A stretch of 47,728 nt of DNA from Bacteroidetes bacterium 4572_128. GTDB taxonomy: Bacteria > Bacteroidota > Bacteroidia > Bacteroidales > 4572-128. The stretch is from positions 1 through 47,728 of the forward strand of contig NBLL01000025.1 in assembly GCA_002084355.1 (NCBI GenBank), read 5' to 3'. Shown here in pieces: positions 30,302-47,620 of this stretch. The notes under the pieces were generated by a model. The model made no database searches and was not told the DNA's origin. It saw only the letters and a list, made by a program, of their open reading frames with translations. The position numbers and the translations under genes are program-made. How positions within the stretch are numbered: position 1 is the first letter of the stretch; each line of letters begins with the position of its first letter.

Positions 30302-31289
30302 ATGATAAAATTTCAGTTATCAAGATGATTATGTTGATGATGGTGTAGATTTTTCTATGCAAAAATTTTTCCTAGAAAAAATGAAGAAATTTGCTGAGCA
30401 TTTTAATAAAAAAAATAATGTTCATGCTCATATAAATTTTACCGGAGGCGAACCTTTTTTAAAAAAAGATTTTCTTCATTTGTTAAACGAAACAAATGAA
30501 AAAAGAATTTTCACTTATGGAATTCTTTCGAATGGTTATTTGTTATCAGAAAAAAAACTTTTATTATTAAAAAAATTAAAACCAAAATTCATTCAAATTA
30601 GTCTGGAAGGAGGAAAGGAAATGAACGATTATATTCGTGGAAAAGGCAGTTTTGAAAAAATTACAAAAGCATTAAAAACATATTCAAAATTAAAAATCAA
30701 TGTAATAATTTCATTTACAGCAAATTCGAATAATTATAAAGAATTTCCAGAAGTTGTAAGAATTGCAAGAAAATATAAAGTTTTAAATGTGTGGACTGAC
30801 AGATATTTACCTCAGAATAAATCTGATAACTTAACTATGAACAACAAACAAACGAAAGAATTTTTTGAAATAATTTTGAAAGAGCAGAAGAAAATTAAAT
30901 TTTATTTTTTTTCACATACCAAAGTTGTTTCAAATCGTGCTTTGCAATTTTTGGTTTGTGGAGGAATGCCTTACCGATGTTCTGCCGGAGATACATTAAT
31001 GGCATTTATGCCGAATGGAGATATTTTTCCTTGCAGAAGATTGCCAATAAAAGTTGGAAATTTGAAAAAAGATAATTTGATAGAAGTTTATAAAAATAAT
31101 ATTTTCTTAAAAAAATTAAGAAATTATAAAAAATTCGCAAAGAACTGTCATAATTGTCATTATAAAATCACTTGTAACGGTGGATTAAGATGTCTTGCTT
31201 ACGCTAAATATAAAAACATTGATAAAAAAGACCCTAATTGTTGGATATTTGAAAAATTAAAAAAAATTAAAATTTTGGACGTTTTTTGA
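30302..31289 (+). pseudogene. radical SAM/SPASM protein lacking its CxxxCxxC segment
   Basis: The start MIKFQ at 30302 is followed by a stop. Another frame continues as YQDDYVDDGVDFSMQKFF and the rest of the protein (ORF 30357-31289). In the family the missing stretch between these pieces carries the CxxxCxxC triad that binds the [4Fe-4S]-AdoMet cluster (CNxxCxHC before YQDDY). About 14 residues and the frame are lost. The SPASM region is intact: CGGMPYRCSAGDTLMAF, FPCRR, CHNCHYKITCNGGLRC and a final Cys. GGEPFL of the radical SAM core is present. As read the enzyme cannot form its radical. The last residues (KILDVF, TGA) are encoded by the first copy of the downstream repeat. Confidence 0.85.
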
Positions 31290-31419
31290 AAAAAATTTTT
31301 TTTATTTTGAAATTTAAAAATATTAAAATTTTGGACGATTTTTGAAAAAATTTTTTTTTATTTTGAAATTAAAAAAAATTAAAATTTTGGGCGATTTTTT
31401 GAAAAAAATATTTTAACAT

Positions 31420-31453
31420 AACATTGGAGGTTTCTTTTTTAACCTCCAATGTT
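31420..31453. repeat. AACATTGGAGGTT hairpin element, copy 1
   Basis: AACATTGGAGGTT-TCTTTTTT-AACCTCCAATGTT: 13-bp perfect stem. Family members in this window lie at 31605, 34434, 38152, 40267 and 47487, with decayed ones at 31829 and 35718. Confidence 0.9.
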
Positions 31454-31604
31454 TCGACATCAAATTTTGGACGAATTTTGAAAATAAATTTTTTATTTTG
31501 AAATTTAAAAATATTAAAATTTTGGGCGATTTTTTGAAAAAAATTTTTTATTTTGAAATTCAAAAATATTAAAATTTTGGGCGATTTTTTATTGAAAATT
31601 TTTT

Positions 31605-31638
31605 AACATTGGAGGTTTCTTTTTTAACCTCCAATGTT
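31605..31638. repeat. AACATTGGAGGTT hairpin element, copy 2
   Basis: Identical 13-bp stem and loop to copy 1, inserted in the ~56-bp array. Confidence 0.9.
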
Positions 31639-31756
31639 TGTTTTAATTTAAAATTTTGGACGATTTTTGAAAAAATTATTTTTTATTTCAATTTAAAATC
31701 ATTAAAATTTTGGTCGAATTTTGAAAATTATTTTTTTTAAATTATAAAAATCACAA

Positions 31757-33358: not shown

Positions 33359-33390
33359 TCCTGCGCCTATGCGGTGTTTTCTCCACATCT
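33359..33390 (+). repeat. REP-like GTGCGGTG element, copy c
   Basis: TCCTGCGCCTATGCGGTGTT then TTCTCCACATCT, 37 bp past the aspartyl-protease stop and in the gene's direction, so it may act as its terminator. Confidence 0.75.
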
Positions 33391-33404
33391 ATTTTTAGAT
33401 TAAA

Positions 33405-33665
33405 AAAATATTAAAATTTTGGACGATTTTTGAAAAAAAATTTTTTTTAATTTTGAAACTAAAAAATATTAAAATTTTGGATGAATTATGAAAAAAAATT
33501 TTTATATTTTGAAATTAAAAAATATTAAAATTTTGGACGATTTTTTGAAAAAAATTTTTTTATTTTGAAAATTAAAAATATTAAAATTTTGGACGATTTT
33601 TGAAAAAAAAATTTTTTTATTTTAAAATTCAAAATTTTAGGCGTTTTTTGAAAAAAAAAAATTTT
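33405..33665 (+). repeat. about 56-bp repeat array, about 5 units
   Basis: GGACG/GGATG/GGCG centres lie at about 33419, 33478, 33535, 33593 and 33638. Plus orientation. Fills the gap between the aspartyl protease and the 33713 gene. Confidence 0.92.
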
Positions 33666-33690
33666 TTTTCGTTAAAAATTAAAAATTTTA

Positions 33691-33698
33691 TAAATTTG
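33691..33698 (+). promoter_or_regulatory. putative -7 box TAAATTTG
   Basis: Exact TAnnTTTG match 14 bp before the ATG at 33713, just after the repeat array. Confidence 0.55.
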
Positions 33699-33712: not shown

Positions 33713-34072
33713 ATGATTAAGGAACAGGAAATAAAAAAACATTTGTCTGAAGACATAAAAAAAATTATGAATCTTCCCATTAATAAAAAAAATTATTTTG
33801 CTTTTCAAGAGGTAATAAAAGATTTACGTCCAAAAAATTGTATGGTAAAATTTGGTTGGGAATCTGGAACTGCTATAAATTTTACACTTGTTTATAAAAA
33901 AAATGGCTCTGGTGACCCTTATGACGAATTTATAAAAGGCATAAATGATAAAGCTCATGCTTATTATTTTATAATGGGTTTAAACCCTAATATTTTTCAT
34001 TTTAACCAGATAACTGTTGCCCACATTGAAGATTATTTAATATTAAAGTTTAATTTGAAACGCAATGAATAA
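33713..34072 (+). CDS. hypothetical protein, first gene of a two-gene unit
   Basis: 119 residues, soluble, mixed helix/strand, no family recognised. Features: N-terminal charged helix (KEQEIKKHLSEDIKKIMNLP), a central strand block (MVKFGWESGTAINFTLVYKK), the glycine/aspartate loop GSGDPYDEFIKG, and a C-terminal helix-strand (NQITVAHIEDYLILKFNLK). Its end overlaps the start of the HNH-type gene by 8 nt, so the two are almost certainly co-translated. It sits in a cluster with a TA pair and a type II RM system, so a defence or toxin role is possible but is only inference. Confidence 0.7.
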   Translation: MIKEQEIKKHLSEDIKKIMNLPINKKNYFAFQEVIKDLRPKNCMVKFGWESGTAINFTLVYKKNGSGDPYDEFIKGINDKAHAYYFIMGLNPNIFHFNQITVAHIEDYLILKFNLKRNE

Positions 34073-34334
34073 AAAACGAATATGTGAAAAATGTGGGAAA
34101 GAACATTATTGTGATGCACACCATATTTTACCAAAAGGCATTTTTGGGGAAGATGGAGATATTGCTTATTTATGTAAAAACTGCCATGATGAATATCATA
34201 GAGTGCTTGGGCATAAATTTTTACGAAAGAAAAATAAACAATCTATGGAATTTTATATATATAAATATTATCGTTGGTTTGTTGGGTTTTCAATAATTAT
34301 AGGATTATTCATATTTGCTAAATATTTTATTTGA
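34065..34334 (+). CDS. HNH-type zinc-finger protein with C-terminal membrane helix
   Basis: 89 residues. A CEKC pair (Cys8/Cys11) leads to DAHHILPKGIFGEDGD, with the double His of HNH nucleases, then YLCKNCHDEYH (second zinc pair and the last His). This is a compact HNH fold of the kind often called HNH endonuclease in Bacteroidota. Unusually, the last ~25 residues (YRWFVGFSIIIGLFIFAKYFI) form a hydrophobic tail that looks like a transmembrane anchor. It overlaps the upstream 33713 gene by 8 nt. Whether it cleaves nucleic acid is unproven. The membrane tail is the odd feature. Confidence 0.75.
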   Translation: MNKKRICEKCGKEHYCDAHHILPKGIFGEDGDIAYLCKNCHDEYHRVLGHKFLRKKNKQSMEFYIYKYYRWFVGFSIIIGLFIFAKYFI

Positions 34335-34340
34335 AATACA

Positions 34341-34630
34341 TTAAAATTTTGGACGAATTTTGAAAAAAAATTTTTTTTAATTTAAATTTTAAAAATATTA
34401 AAATTTTGGACGATTTTTTATTAAAAATTTTTTAACATTGGAGGTTTCTTTTTTAACACCAATGTTTTCGACATCAAATTTTGGACGATTTTTGAAAAAA
34501 AATTTTTTTATTTTGAAATTCAAAAATATTAAAATTTTGGGCGATTTTTTGAAAAAAAATTTTTATATTTTGAAATTAAAAATTGTTAAAATTTTGGACG
34601 TTTTTTTGGAAAAAAATTTTTTTTTCAAAT
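34341..34630 (+). repeat. about 56-bp repeat array, about 5 units, with hairpin copy 3
   Basis: Centres lie at about 34349, 34408, 34485, 34543 and 34600. The hairpin at 34434-34466 (AACATTGGAGGTTT ... AACACCAATGTT) has a GGAGG left arm but an ACACC right arm, so its inner stem is mismatched. ORFs 34438-34632 and 34563-34751 are repeat translations. Confidence 0.9.
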
Positions 34631-34644
34631 AATTAAAAAAAATG

Positions 34645-34674: not shown

Positions 34675-34980
34675 ATGATTAGTATAGAATTATCATATAA
34701 AACAGAAAAACGATTAAAACAAATATTACTTGTCCAAAGTAATAAAGACAAATTTTTTAGGAAAATTATAGATTTTCAAATAGATGAATTAAAACTTGGT
34801 TTATATAATATAAAAAAAGATTTAGATGAATTTGAAAAAAAATATTTAATAGATACGAAATTATTTTATAAAAAATTTCAAGCAGGAGAAATAGACGACA
34901 AAGATGATTTTATGATTTGGGCAGGAATTTATGAAATGTTTTTAAGAGATAAACAAATTTTAGAAAAATTAAAATGGTAA
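34675..34980 (+). CDS. putative antitoxin of the TumE-type pair
   Basis: 101 residues, acidic and helical. The N-terminal strand ISIELSYKTEKRLKQIL suggests a ribbon-helix-helix start. The C-terminal part (DEFEKKYLIDTKLFYKKFQA, DDKDDFMIWAGIYEMFLRDK) is the toxin-binding segment seen in small Bacteroidota and cyanobacterial antitoxins upstream of TumE/DUF6516 toxins. It overlaps the toxin start by 7 nt. Probably autorepresses the operon from the -7 box at 34645. Assignment rests on context and general resemblance. Confidence 0.75.
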   Translation: MISIELSYKTEKRLKQILLVQSNKDKFFRKIIDFQIDELKLGLYNIKKDLDEFEKKYLIDTKLFYKKFQAGEIDDKDDFMIWAGIYEMFLRDKQILEKLKW

Positions 34981-35345
34981 AAAAATATTTTTCAAATCTT
35001 GAAGATAAAATATCTTTATTTCAAAATATTATAAATGAATATTCTATCACAAAAAAATATTATAACAATTATAAAGCTTATATATCCGGCAGTATAATTT
35101 TTAAAAATAATAGCAAATTATTTTTTACGGAAGTAAAAGATACTGAATTTTATAGAAAAGATAAATATAGTTATCATTATATGAATTCAGAAAATGAGCT
35201 GATCTTCAGATATGATAATGCCTATCATCATCCTGAAATAAAAACATTTCCGCATCATAAACATACAAAAAATGCAATTGAAGAAAGTAGTGAACCAGAA
35301 ATAGATAATATATTGTTTGAAATTAAAACACAAAATCAGTTATAA
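34974..35345 (+). CDS. TumE/DUF6516-family putative toxin
   Basis: 123 residues. The diagnostic block is SYHYMNSENELIFRYDNAYH then HHPEIKTFPHHKH and SSEPEIDNILFEI, matching the conserved core of proteins annotated as toxin-antitoxin TumE family (DUF6516). The preceding beta region (YKAYISGSIIFKNNSKLFFTEV) is also family-like. Translationally coupled to the antitoxin. The mode of action of this family is not well established, and none can be read from the sequence. His-rich PHHKH is the best candidate active-site patch. Confidence 0.85.
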   Translation: MVKKYFSNLEDKISLFQNIINEYSITKKYYNNYKAYISGSIIFKNNSKLFFTEVKDTEFYRKDKYSYHYMNSENELIFRYDNAYHHPEIKTFPHHKHTKNAIEESSEPEIDNILFEIKTQNQL

Positions 35346-35350
35346 GATAT

Positions 35351-35810
35351 AAAAATATTAAAATTTTGGACGAATTTTGAAAAAAAATTTTTTTTATTTT
35401 GAAATTAAAAAATATTAAAATTTTGGACGATTTTTGAAAAAAATTTTTTAACATTTCGACATCAAATTTTGGACGATTTTTGAAAAAAAATTTTTTTTAT
35501 TTTGAAATAAAAAAAATATTAAAATTTTGGACGATTTTTGAAAAAAAATTTTTTTTATTTTAAAATTCAAAATTTTGGGCGATTTTGAAAAAAAATTTTT
35601 TTTTATTTTGAAATTAAAAAATATTAAAATTTTGGACGATTTTTGAAAAAAAATTTTTTTTATTTTGAAATTAAAAAATATTAAAATTTTGGACGATTTT
35701 TGAAAAAAAATTTTTTTGAAACCTCCAATGTTGTATTTTTTAAAATTTTAAAATTTTGGTCGTTTTTTTGAAAAAATTTTTTTCAATTTTGAAATTAAAA
35801 ATATTAAATT
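35351..35810 (+). repeat. about 56-bp repeat array, about 8 units
   Basis: Centres lie at about 35368, 35425, 35471, 35527, 35576, 35633, 35690 and 35758. A half hairpin (ACCTCCAATGTT) lies at 35718-35732, and CGACATCAAATTTTGGACG at about 35458 marks the scar of another. No gene in this gap. Confidence 0.92.
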
Positions 35811-35854: not shown

Positions 35855-36788
35855 ATGACTACTCTAAATATTCTAAAAATTATTATAGAAAATATTAAGA
35901 ATAAAGAAAATGTATTAAATCAAAATATTGATTTGAAAATTATATCCAATTTCTTTAAAAAAGTAAAAACAGATAAAAATAAATTTAATTACGCCTATCT
36001 AAATTATTATCTATATAATAATATTTCTAATGAAATTGTAGCGAAAAGAAAAACAACGTCAAGAGATTTTGAAGATATTATTGCAACTATTTTTGATGGG
36101 AGTATTACAGATGAAAATAAAAGAGAAAATATTAATATAGAAAATTTCATTTTAGAGAATGAAACAATAACAGGATTTGCTATTTCTAATAAAAGAGAAA
36201 AAGCTGATATTAAAATAGGAAAAGATTATTTAGTCTCAATTAAGACCTTAATGAATTCTAATAAAGAAATTAATTTTGGTTCTTTTGAAAAAACAACTCT
36301 TTTTAGTGGCTTTCATATTGAAAGATATTTGAATGAAAGAAAAGGAATATCTGGAGAAAAAATTGGATTAGGTTCAAAAGTGCGTTTATTTAATTTATTA
36401 AAAAAAATAGAAAAAGATAATTTATTATATTCTAAATTTCAAATAAGATTTAACAAACTTATCAAATTTGTATTTGCTGATGATTTAGTTATTTTAATTA
36501 AAAATAATAAAAAAGTTGATTTATATTTTATAGAAGGTAAACAATTTATAAAATTATTGATTAATAAAAGCAATTCTCCTGAAGAACTAACTTCTATTAT
36601 TAACCGCTGGGAAGGTAATTCAATTAGAATGAATAGAGTCCCTATTTTAGACAGAAAAACAAATTTCTACTTACTTTATAAAATATGTCAATAGCTACCC
36701 AAATAATGCGATTTATAAAGAATTAATCTTTGAAGAATGTAATAAAATTCTAAAAAATATTGATACAAATATTAATGATTTAATATAA
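35855..36788 (+). pseudogene. putative type II restriction endonuclease, C-terminus frameshifted
   Basis: The main ORF (35855-36694, 279 aa) is followed in another frame by FIKYVNSYPNNAIYKELIFE and on to TAA 36788, 5 nt before the methyltransferase ATG. The natural gene therefore probably ended there and lost frame near 36680. A PD-(D/E)xK-like core may be ADIKIGKDYLVSIKT (Asp118 ... Lys130), with Ser in place of the usual Glu two residues before the Lys. SRDFEDIIATIFDG upstream fits a helix of such nucleases. Family not recognised; the restriction role is inferred mainly from tight pairing with the C5 methylase. Either inactive, phase variable or misread. Confidence 0.7.
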
Positions 36789-36793
36789 TTATT

Positions 36794-37801
36794 ATGAAAG
36801 TAGTATCTTTATTTTGTGGTTGTGGTGGCTTGGATTTAGGTTTAAAACAAGCAGGTCATCAAATCATTTGGGCAAATGATTTTGACAAAGATGCCATAGA
36901 AACTTATAGAAGAAATATTTTAGAAAAAGATGAGCATTTAATTTGTAAATCTATTGTAGAAATTCCATCTAATGAAATTCCTGGTTGCGATTTAGTAGTT
37001 GGAGGTTTTCCTTGTCAAGGTTTTTCGGTAGCTAATCCTTACAGACAAGAAAAAGATAAACGAAACTTTCTATATCAAGAATTATTAAGAGTTGTAAAAA
37101 ATAAACAACCTAAATTTTTTCTTGGTGAAAATGTGCAAGGAATTACAAATTTAGGAGGTTATAACAGTGTGCAGGATAAGAAAAAGAAATTAGGACGAGT
37201 TTTTAAAATGATTTTAAATGATTTTAAAAATATAGGTTATAAAATATATTGGGATATTTTAAATTCTGCAGATTATGGAGTTCCTCAGTTACGAAAAAGA
37301 ATGATTATGATTGGCATTAGAAATGATATAAATTTATCTTTTGAATTTCCTAAAAAAACACATTTTCCTAAAAAAGTAAAAAATCATAGTTTACAAATTG
37401 GATTTACATTTTTATGTTCAAATGTTAAATATCATAAAACTGTTGGAGAAACAATTAATGATTTACCTTTAGAATATAGTTCAATTATTCCAAATCATCA
37501 AGGAACAAAACACAAAGTTAAAATAAATGGTTACTTAGGAAATAGACATACTTTTGTAGATAAACCATCTCCAACAATAGTTGGTAGGGGAGGAGGCACT
37601 GGTGGTCCTGTTATTTTACCACATCCTTCTCAAAAAAGAAGAATGACAGTTAGAGAAGTTGCTCGTTTACAAACATTTCCTGATGACTTTATTTTTTATG
37701 GTTCAGTTAGTTCACAATACAGACAAATTGGAAATGCAGTTCCTGTAGAATTAGCTTATATTTTAGGTGAAAAATTAAAACAAATAGAAAAAATGTTATA
37801 A
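36794..37801 (+). CDS. type II DNA (cytosine-5)-methyltransferase
   Basis: 335 residues, complete. Motif I LFCGCGGLDLGLKQAGH, motif IV GGFPCQGFS with the catalytic Cys (about residue 78), motif VI ENVQGI, motif VIII YGVPQLRKRMIMIG, the short target-recognition domain around TIVGRGGGTGGPVILP, motif IX REVARLQTFPDDF and motif X QIGNAVPVELAY. It methylates the recognition site of its partner endonuclease 5 nt upstream. The recognition sequence cannot be read from the protein. Confidence 0.93.
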   Translation: MKVVSLFCGCGGLDLGLKQAGHQIIWANDFDKDAIETYRRNILEKDEHLICKSIVEIPSNEIPGCDLVVGGFPCQGFSVANPYRQEKDKRNFLYQELLRVVKNKQPKFFLGENVQGITNLGGYNSVQDKKKKLGRVFKMILNDFKNIGYKIYWDILNSADYGVPQLRKRMIMIGIRNDINLSFEFPKKTHFPKKVKNHSLQIGFTFLCSNVKYHKTVGETINDLPLEYSSIIPNHQGTKHKVKINGYLGNRHTFVDKPSPTIVGRGGGTGGPVILPHPSQKRRMTVREVARLQTFPDDFIFYGSVSSQYRQIGNAVPVELAYILGEKLKQIEKML

Positions 37802-37879: not shown

Positions 37880-38235
37880 TTTATTGAAAATAAAATTAAA
37901 AAATATTAAAATTTTAGACGATTTTTTGAAAAAAATTTTTTTATTTTGAGATTAAAAAATATTAAAATTTTAGACGATTTTTAAAAAAAAAATTTTTTGA
38001 AATTAAAAAATATTAAAATTTTGGACGAATTTTGAAAAAAAAAAATATTTTGAAATAATAAAAATATTAAAATTTTGGACGTTTTCTAAAAAAATTTTTT
38101 GAAATTAAAAAGTATTAAAATTTTGGACGTTTTTCGAAAAAAAATTTTTTTAACATTGGTGTTTCTTTTTTAACACCAATGTTTGTTTTAATTTAAAATT
38201 TTGGACGTTTTTCGAAAAAAAAATTTTTTATTTTG
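37880..38235 (+). repeat. about 55-bp repeat array, about 6 units, with hairpin copy 4
   Basis: Centres lie at about 37915, 37972, 38027, 38082, 38127 and 38205. The hairpin at 38152-38183 reads AACATTGGTGTT-TCTTTTTT-AACACCAATGTT, the GGTG/CACC stem variant. The array keeps the plus orientation although rsgA ends toward it on the minus strand. With 38242-38274 it fills the 37802-38285 gap. Confidence 0.92.
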
Positions 38236-40099: not shown

Positions 40100-40745
40100 A
40101 TTATTAAATTTAATATATTAAAATTTTGTGTAAATTCTGAAAAAAAATTTTTTTATTTTGAAATTAAAAAATATTAAAATTTTGGACGAATTTGAAAAAA
40201 ATTTTTTTTTAATTGAAATTAAAAAATATTGAAATTTTGGACGAATTTTTTTATTAAAATTTTTTTAACATTGGTCTTTCTTTTTTAACACCAATGTTTG
40301 ATGTAGAAAATTTTGGACGTTAAAAAAAAAAAAAATTGAGATTAAAAAATGTTGAAATTTTGGTCGTTTTTTTTGAAATTTTTTTTATTTGAAATTAAAA
40401 AACATTAAAATTTTGGACGAATTTGAAAAAAAATTTTTTTTTTAAATTTGAAAATTTGAAAATTTGAAAAATATTGTATTTTTTAAAAGATTAAAATTTT
40501 GGTCATTTTTTGAAAAAATTTTTTTATTATAAAAAACCATTAAAATTTCGGTGTTTTTTGGAAAAAATTTTTAAATTATAAAAAACCATTAAAAAATTGC
40601 CGTTTTTTGGAAAAATTTTTTTTTAATAAAATAATTAAAATATTTGCGTTTTTTGAAAAAATTTTTTTTTAATAATTTAATTCATTAAAATTTTGACGTT
40701 TTTTGGAAAAAATTTTTTTTAACAGTAATTTTTTTTAATTTTTTT
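40100..40745 (+). repeat. mixed repeat array, about 10 units, with hairpin copy 5
   Basis: Left half uses the GGACG centre with GAAATTAAAAAATATT spacer (about 40134-40430). Right half drifts to other centres: TTTCGGTG, TTGCCG, TTTGCG, TTTGACG (about 40500-40720), with ATTATAAAAAACC spacers. A hairpin at 40267-40298 (AACATTGGTC ... AACACCAATGTT) is imperfect. Nothing gene-like in 39981-40804. Confidence 0.9.
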
Positions 40746-47394: not shown

Positions 47395-47620
47395 ATAAAT
47401 CTTGGCGTTTTTTGAAAAAATTTTTTATTAATTTCAAAATAAAAAATCGTAAAATTTCGGACGATTTTTGAAAAAAAAATTTTTTTAACATTGGAGGTTT
47501 CTTTTTTAACCTCCAATGTTTGTTCTAAATGTTGTTTTTATTAAAAATGTTAAAATTTTGGACGTTTTTTTGAAAAATTTTTTTTTAAATTTCGAAATTT
47601 AAAGATGTTAAAATTTTGGA
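47395..47620 (+). repeat. about 56-bp repeat array, about 4 units, with hairpin copy 6
   Basis: Centres (TTGGCG, TCGGACG, TTGGACG, TTGGAC) lie at about 47403, 47457, 47561 and 47617. A perfect AACATTGGAGGTT/AACCTCCAATGTT hairpin is at 47487-47520. Confidence 0.9.

Follow-up and report, generated by a model that had tools for sequence, protein, structure and literature searches.

We found that two overlapping genes, here called A and H, form a two-gene family, apparently undescribed, of uncultured Bacteroidales and some of their phages. Both lie in the window, by which we mean the whole stretch of 47,728 nucleotides that was analysed. On the basis of sequence comparison we put at roughly 0.55 the probability that the pair is a module of the toxin-antidote type, in which a membrane-tethered HNH effector (H) would be restrained by its antidote (A). 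The pair probably also has a role in defence or superinfection exclusion, which is somewhat less certain than the antidote-restrained effector. No description of the A-H pair was found in the literature searched and no matching family in the libraries searched, in agreement with the preliminary description of this locus, which had named the unit as a candidate for an undescribed defence or toxin module. The features of the locus are as follows.

33390..33690, + strand: upstream array of ~56-bp AT-rich repeats, four cores (TRF)
33691..33698, + strand: TAnnTTTG, promoter box of the -7 type, TAAATTTG (pattern match, weak alone)
33713..34072, + strand: gene A (partner type T1), 119 aa, presumed antidote (ORF; homologues adjoin H)
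34065..34334, + strand: gene H, 89 aa, HNH domain and C-terminal transmembrane helix, presumed effector (ORF; HNH profile match)
34065..34072, + strand: A/H overlap of 8 nt, ATGAATAA (sequence)
34083..34199, + strand: HNH/zinc part of H, residues 7-45 (C7, C10, H19, H20, C37, C40, H41, H45), conserved in 34 aligned H proteins
34275..34331, + strand: C-terminal transmembrane helix of H, residues 71-89 (hydropathy and predicted structure)
34340..34640, + strand: downstream array of ~56-bp AT-rich repeats, five cores (TRF)
34675-35345: TumA/TumE pair, 3' of A-H (TumE Pfam E 2e-23)
36794-37801: C5 methyltransferase, 3' of A-H (E 5e-78)

The two open reading frames and their 8-nt overlap, as proposed earlier, were both confirmed. 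Between paralogues dN is lower than dS, which indicates purifying selection on both A and H, and since the pair also recurs in other genomes these reading frames are far from chance. Many T1 relatives share the overlap of 8 nt, and the other relatives have short overlaps of different lengths; translational coupling of A and H through the overlap is likely. The preliminary description had also placed a -7 box before the unit. The motif is indeed present and ends 14 nt ahead of the ATG of A, but its position is weak promoter evidence because TAnnTTTG turns up roughly every 1.1 kb on each strand of the window, the GC content of which is 24%. An RNA family search of the A-H region found none. The unit was rightly said to lie between repeats, as the ~56-bp arrays flank it on either side. 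Further arrays of this kind were noticed in the window at 31250-31750, 35350-35750, 37890-38200, 40100-40720 and 47450-47620, bordering the small cassettes of the 31-41 kb region; their core, AAAATTTTGGACG, is strand-biased (39 on + versus 2 on -), and the repeats are also present on other contigs of the same genome and in the sister species. Such arrays might aid cassette exchange. The neighbourhood had been described as holding a toxin-antitoxin pair and a type II restriction-modification system, and of these TumA/TumE and the C5 methyltransferase stand, whereas the supposed restriction enzyme, a 279-aa protein at 35855-36694 adjoining the methyltransferase, gave no family match in Pfam, NCBIfam or defence-protein profiles. 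It is presumably the restriction enzyme of that methyltransferase.

All intact H proteins are stand-alone proteins of 81-95 aa with no upstream extension. In an alignment of 34 H proteins C7, C10, H19, H20, C37, C40, H45 and W71 are invariant and H41 is kept in at least 90%, and H has the metal and general-base histidines (H19, H20, H41 and H45) together with four zinc cysteines. In place of the central Asn of the HNH motif these proteins carry D, E, K, S or T. Hpy99I is likewise without a counterpart of Gme Asn68 (PMC3765158), and nuclease activity of H is therefore plausible but not assured. The AlphaFold2 model of H has strands at residues 3-6, 13-20 and 33-37 and helices at 24-30 and 38-48, which make up a beta-beta-alpha-metal fold with a zinc ribbon, and a long C-terminal helix at 61-88 (pLDDT 85-98). 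The tail has a Kyte-Doolittle hydropathy of 2.03 over 19 residues, with positive charges on its N side only. A C-terminal hydrophobic helix was seen in 37 of the 37 H relatives, preceded by positive charges with almost none after it, from which the HNH part is expected on the cytosolic side. The compact HNH domain with a membrane tail, which the preliminary description had pointed out as unusual, is hence borne out by the zinc and metal residues, by the single helix predicted at 71-89 and by the structure prediction, apart from the missing Asn; homologues devoid of the tail, which it had named as an outcome against its proposal, did not turn up among the 37.

The HNH profile of H aligns with the HNH domains of EcoKMcrA and IscB (E about 2e-6), and the best fold match by Foldseek was EcoKMcrA (PDB 6ghc) at a probability of 0.94, though with an E of 0.14. 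The HNH domain of EcoKMcrA has four Cys and an HH...CH...H pattern in register with H. However, EcoKMcrA is larger, has a part that reads modified bases and possesses the central Asn, whereas H is without this Asn and has a membrane helix and a partner. A Pfam scan returned weak LHH/HNH similarity, H scoring 15.6 bits against PF01844 (under the curated cut-off of 21.4), and among catalogued defence proteins there were only weak cross-matches to DpdF, type IV and ZorE HNH (E 0.007-0.04). The best NCBIfam match was HlpB (NF058586; E 2e-4, 21.7 bits against a cut-off of 130), to which a relative of H from the T5 type described below matched with E 2e-5. HlpB/YisB of Bacillus is, like H, an HNH-like stand-alone protein of about 90-100 aa, but H stays far under the cut-off (about 22-25 of 130 bits) and the similarity ends before the membrane tail. 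HlpB is essential through AddAB, and it binds DNA with cleavage undetected (PMC3765158). H could be a non-cleaving DNA binder of the HlpB kind, because its central Asn is replaced by D, E, K, S or T. That H is a housekeeping DNA-repair protein of this kind, with A as an accessory partner, agrees with HlpB being its best NCBIfam match, also for the T5 relative, but is very improbable given the score of 21.7 bits and given that H is rare, patchy, apparently missing from most related species, multicopy, frequently broken and membrane-tailed.

The partner, A, had been taken for a novel protein, and this was upheld. Its AlphaFold2 model is confident (mean pLDDT 92.8) and consists of two helices, two strands, two helices and two strands. 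No family was found for A in Pfam, NCBIfam, PADLOC or PHROG, nor any match among PDB sequences or catalogued defence proteins. In Foldseek searches no PDB entry came below E 0.02, and among viral models the E was 0.007 with a TM of 0.21. A kinship of A with H-NOX proteins or histidine kinases was dropped, there being no significant structural neighbour by Foldseek.

A occurs in 5 of 393 Bacteroidales genomes, the window's own counted, and in one further MAG, and each of these genomes has H directly 3' of at least one copy of A. The coupling of the two genes is thus found elsewhere, and the outcome that they never co-occur, tested here, did not arise. One genome (G017) holds 17 A copies or fragments, five of them in a row as A-H-A-H repeats with a spacing of ~631 bp, and 28 H copies or fragments. 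The H profile matched 13 of the 393 genomes, which comes to about 11 after two weak matches (a multihaem protein in G052, and one in G387) were discarded as false. In a phylum-wide draw of 396 genomes only the window's genome was positive, and the family is therefore rare and patchy. At the bacterial loci examined an intact H always stands beside a partner gene, one such partner being broken. Five types of partner adjoin H at these loci:

T1: A itself, 119 aa in the window, upstream of H
T2: ~115 aa, upstream of H
T3: ~130-170 aa, upstream of H
T4: ~143 aa, upstream of H
T5: ~145-160 aa, downstream of H, with faint DUF4241 likeness

T3 and T4 are related (hhalign 94%). A single family of all partner types was rejected, as T1 against T2 reached only p 0.016 and T1 against T3 only p 0.005, and a T1-T4 relation was not supported; apart from T3 with T4, no kinship between types could be demonstrated, and a common fold is our guess. 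On the tree of H the partner type changes 5 times for 6 labels, which is the minimum (mean of shuffled labels 20.7), with no swap, indicating that each H lineage stayed with its own kind of partner.

We scored units by hand as intact or broken across the loci collected. About 35 units, including three on phage contigs, have both genes intact, and another 19 retain the partner but have an H that is either missing or broken by a frameshift, a stop or a truncation:

L031 first copy, L032 units 4 and 5, L035 first, L037, L038, L039
L041 second, L043, L044, L107 first, L108 second, L109 second
L113, L114, L115 two, L117 two

The opposite case, an intact H with a broken partner, was met once, at L127, and the H of phage L058/L134, which has no recognisable partner, is a second possible one. 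By sign test the excess has a p of 4e-5 (19 versus 1) or 2e-4 (19 versus 2), most of the 19 lesions coming from the single genome G017 and hence not being independent. Sequencing errors in draft assemblies are possible, but they should affect both genes. The window's own genome (G000) provides two examples outside the window: the T2 pair at L043 (G000:C99, 4043-4587) has 2-nt and 1-nt deletions in H beside an intact partner, the same pair being intact next to the same neighbour gene in the sister species (G001), and in the T5 pair at L044 (G000:C25, 763-1479) a 4-nt difference shifts the frame of H with the partner intact. A decayed T2 relic was seen as well in this genome, at about 1148-1494 of L193 (G000:C90). 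At L037 (G017:C313, 9612-10451) a tail-less H is in frame with a neighbouring secreted-protein gene, DUF4159-like by appearance, and this fusion is apparently a deletion product.

An excess of lost H over lost partner is as expected if H is harmful and its partner an antidote. The 119-aa protein had been proposed as a sensor or an inhibitor, and the lesion asymmetry favours the inhibitor or antidote. We weighed against this a sensor-effector defence system, in which the partner would activate H, both would be needed and H alone would be harmless. It would fit the defence and phage surroundings, the partners diversified in their middle and C-terminal part within arrays and the pair placed inside a Wadjet operon (see below), but it is doubtful, as a mere activator leaves the many intact partners at loci that have lost H unexplained. 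The antidote reading brings to mind type II toxin-antitoxin systems such as TumA/TumE, with which A-H has in common a small upstream gene that overlaps the effector and is kept when the effector breaks. The A-H genes are likewise small, adjacent and co-occurring, and the partner can stand alone where the effector does not (19 versus 1-2, mostly in one genome, with L127 and phage L058 as exceptions). They differ in that the A-H effector is a membrane-tailed HNH protein and the partner has neither an antitoxin domain nor a DNA-binding domain of a known kind; A-H matched none of the toxin-antitoxin families in the libraries searched. A plain addiction module, kept by post-segregational killing with no role in defence, would account for the gene order, the overlap, the lesion bias, the patchy distribution and the carriage by phages. 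We consider it unlikely, since several loci have defence neighbours, and A and a T4-type H were not found on 72,556 plasmids, the one match there to the window's H being weak and confined to the HNH. No relatives of A were found on reference phages either.

Four arrays of T1 and T4 units were compared. The N-terminal part of the partner is 90-100% alike in most comparisons, as is the H tail in most of those of T1 arrays, and identity drops to about 60-75% in the middle of the unit. In this middle dN is well below dS, and at the unit ends dS is low, which suggests that the ends were probably homogenised by gene conversion. Purifying selection prevails in both proteins; with dN below dS almost everywhere, the idea that the diverged middle is positively selected was rejected. 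Segments are shuffled among array units; a strict linkage of the partner's C-terminal hairpin to its own HNH was rejected too, as units 3 and 5 share much of the HNH and differ in their hairpins. Simple ATCATTGT/ACCATTGT repeats were observed directly 5' of several units in G017 (L032, 17-75; L036, upstream of 7863 and 8837).

Arrays of this kind, like the weak LHH/HNH similarity and the partner-only copies, recall polymorphic toxins. H could then be a loose HNH toxin tip left as an orphan, with A as its immunity protein, and the arrays, which resemble homogeneous polyimmunity loci (PMC3482391), would serve as stores against the toxins of neighbours. Polymorphic toxin and polyimmunity loci (PMC3482391) share with A-H an HNH-superfamily toxin, a diverse dedicated partner and tandem arrays, but A-H has no delivery apparatus, most of its units keep both genes and its effector is tail-anchored. 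No intact H was fused to a delivery or trafficking region, and no delivery gene was seen by eye beside the loci. Such an origin is quite improbable in view of this lack of delivery domains and fusions at the loci examined, the partner-first order in four of the five types, the whole H owned by most units, a conserved tail helix that would hardly suit delivery, and the carriage of the pair by phages.

Three complete T2 pairs lie on phage contigs. Two of these contigs are IMG/VR entries from the same sample, where the pair follows the late genes in the position of cargo, with a serine integrase next to come in one (L135, 983-1585; PHROG integrase, E 5e-84) and a tape measure gene ahead of it in the other (L136, 5624-6243); the third is a 334-kb contig with the pair near a Dda-like helicase (L138). 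The partnerless H of L058/L134 has terminase and portal genes close by. Phages commonly carry HNH genes, and this H and its neighbours would agree with a stand-alone homing or packaging HNH that came from phages and was captured by the host, the partner being incidental. This is hardly credible, however, as such proteins are, to our knowledge, soluble, and the tail and a partner of the matching type are conserved in hosts and phages alike.

A defence-related setting, as the preliminary description had it, was recognised for several relatives, though many loci have housekeeping, not defence, neighbours. The window pair keeps company with TumAE and the methyltransferase, and other pairs lie beside Septu (L118), type IIG restriction-modification genes (L041, L109) and an OLD/HEC-01-like ATPase (L125). 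In G058 a T3 pair sits inside a Wadjet operon, where jetA and jetB flank it at gaps of 6 and 1 nt, in the order JetA-partner-H-JetB-JetC (L131, G058:C25, 4527-10799); all other pairs were seen outside Wadjet. JetD_C (PF09983) was not found in this 98% complete genome, whereas control genomes gave matches. It is possible that the operon is a Wadjet/MksBEF system with a substitute nuclease, but replacement of JetD by the pair is only one reading, because JetD loss has also been proposed for MksBEF condensins (PMC10586767). A wider idea, which we regard as improbable, is that of a portable membrane-tethered nuclease module put to use in various conflict contexts: by itself in tandem arrays, in temperate phages as a means of superinfection exclusion, and in G058 as a stand-in for JetD that would cut DNA for a Wadjet complex.

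Combined together, these observations suggest how a toxin-antidote module of this design might work. The C-terminus of H would anchor the protein in the inner membrane and leave its HNH domain on the cytosolic side. A would be made first from the shared message, translationally coupled to H, and would bind H and hold it inactive. If A were lost or disabled, for example upon phage infection or the entry of foreign DNA, H would be released and, still tethered, could cut DNA at the membrane, either the incoming DNA or the chromosome. Hosts may keep the pair as a defence, and in phages that carry it the pair may exclude superinfecting phages or act as an addiction module. The design is unusual in that a nuclease-like domain would be stationed at the inner membrane, the point of entry of phage and plasmid DNA, along with a matched partner, and the tandem arrays and five partner types offer natural variants ready for work on specificity. 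If it is true that the Wadjet-embedded pair of G058 replaces JetD, an SMC defence machine can accept another nuclease and would work with a membrane-anchored one of the HNH kind.
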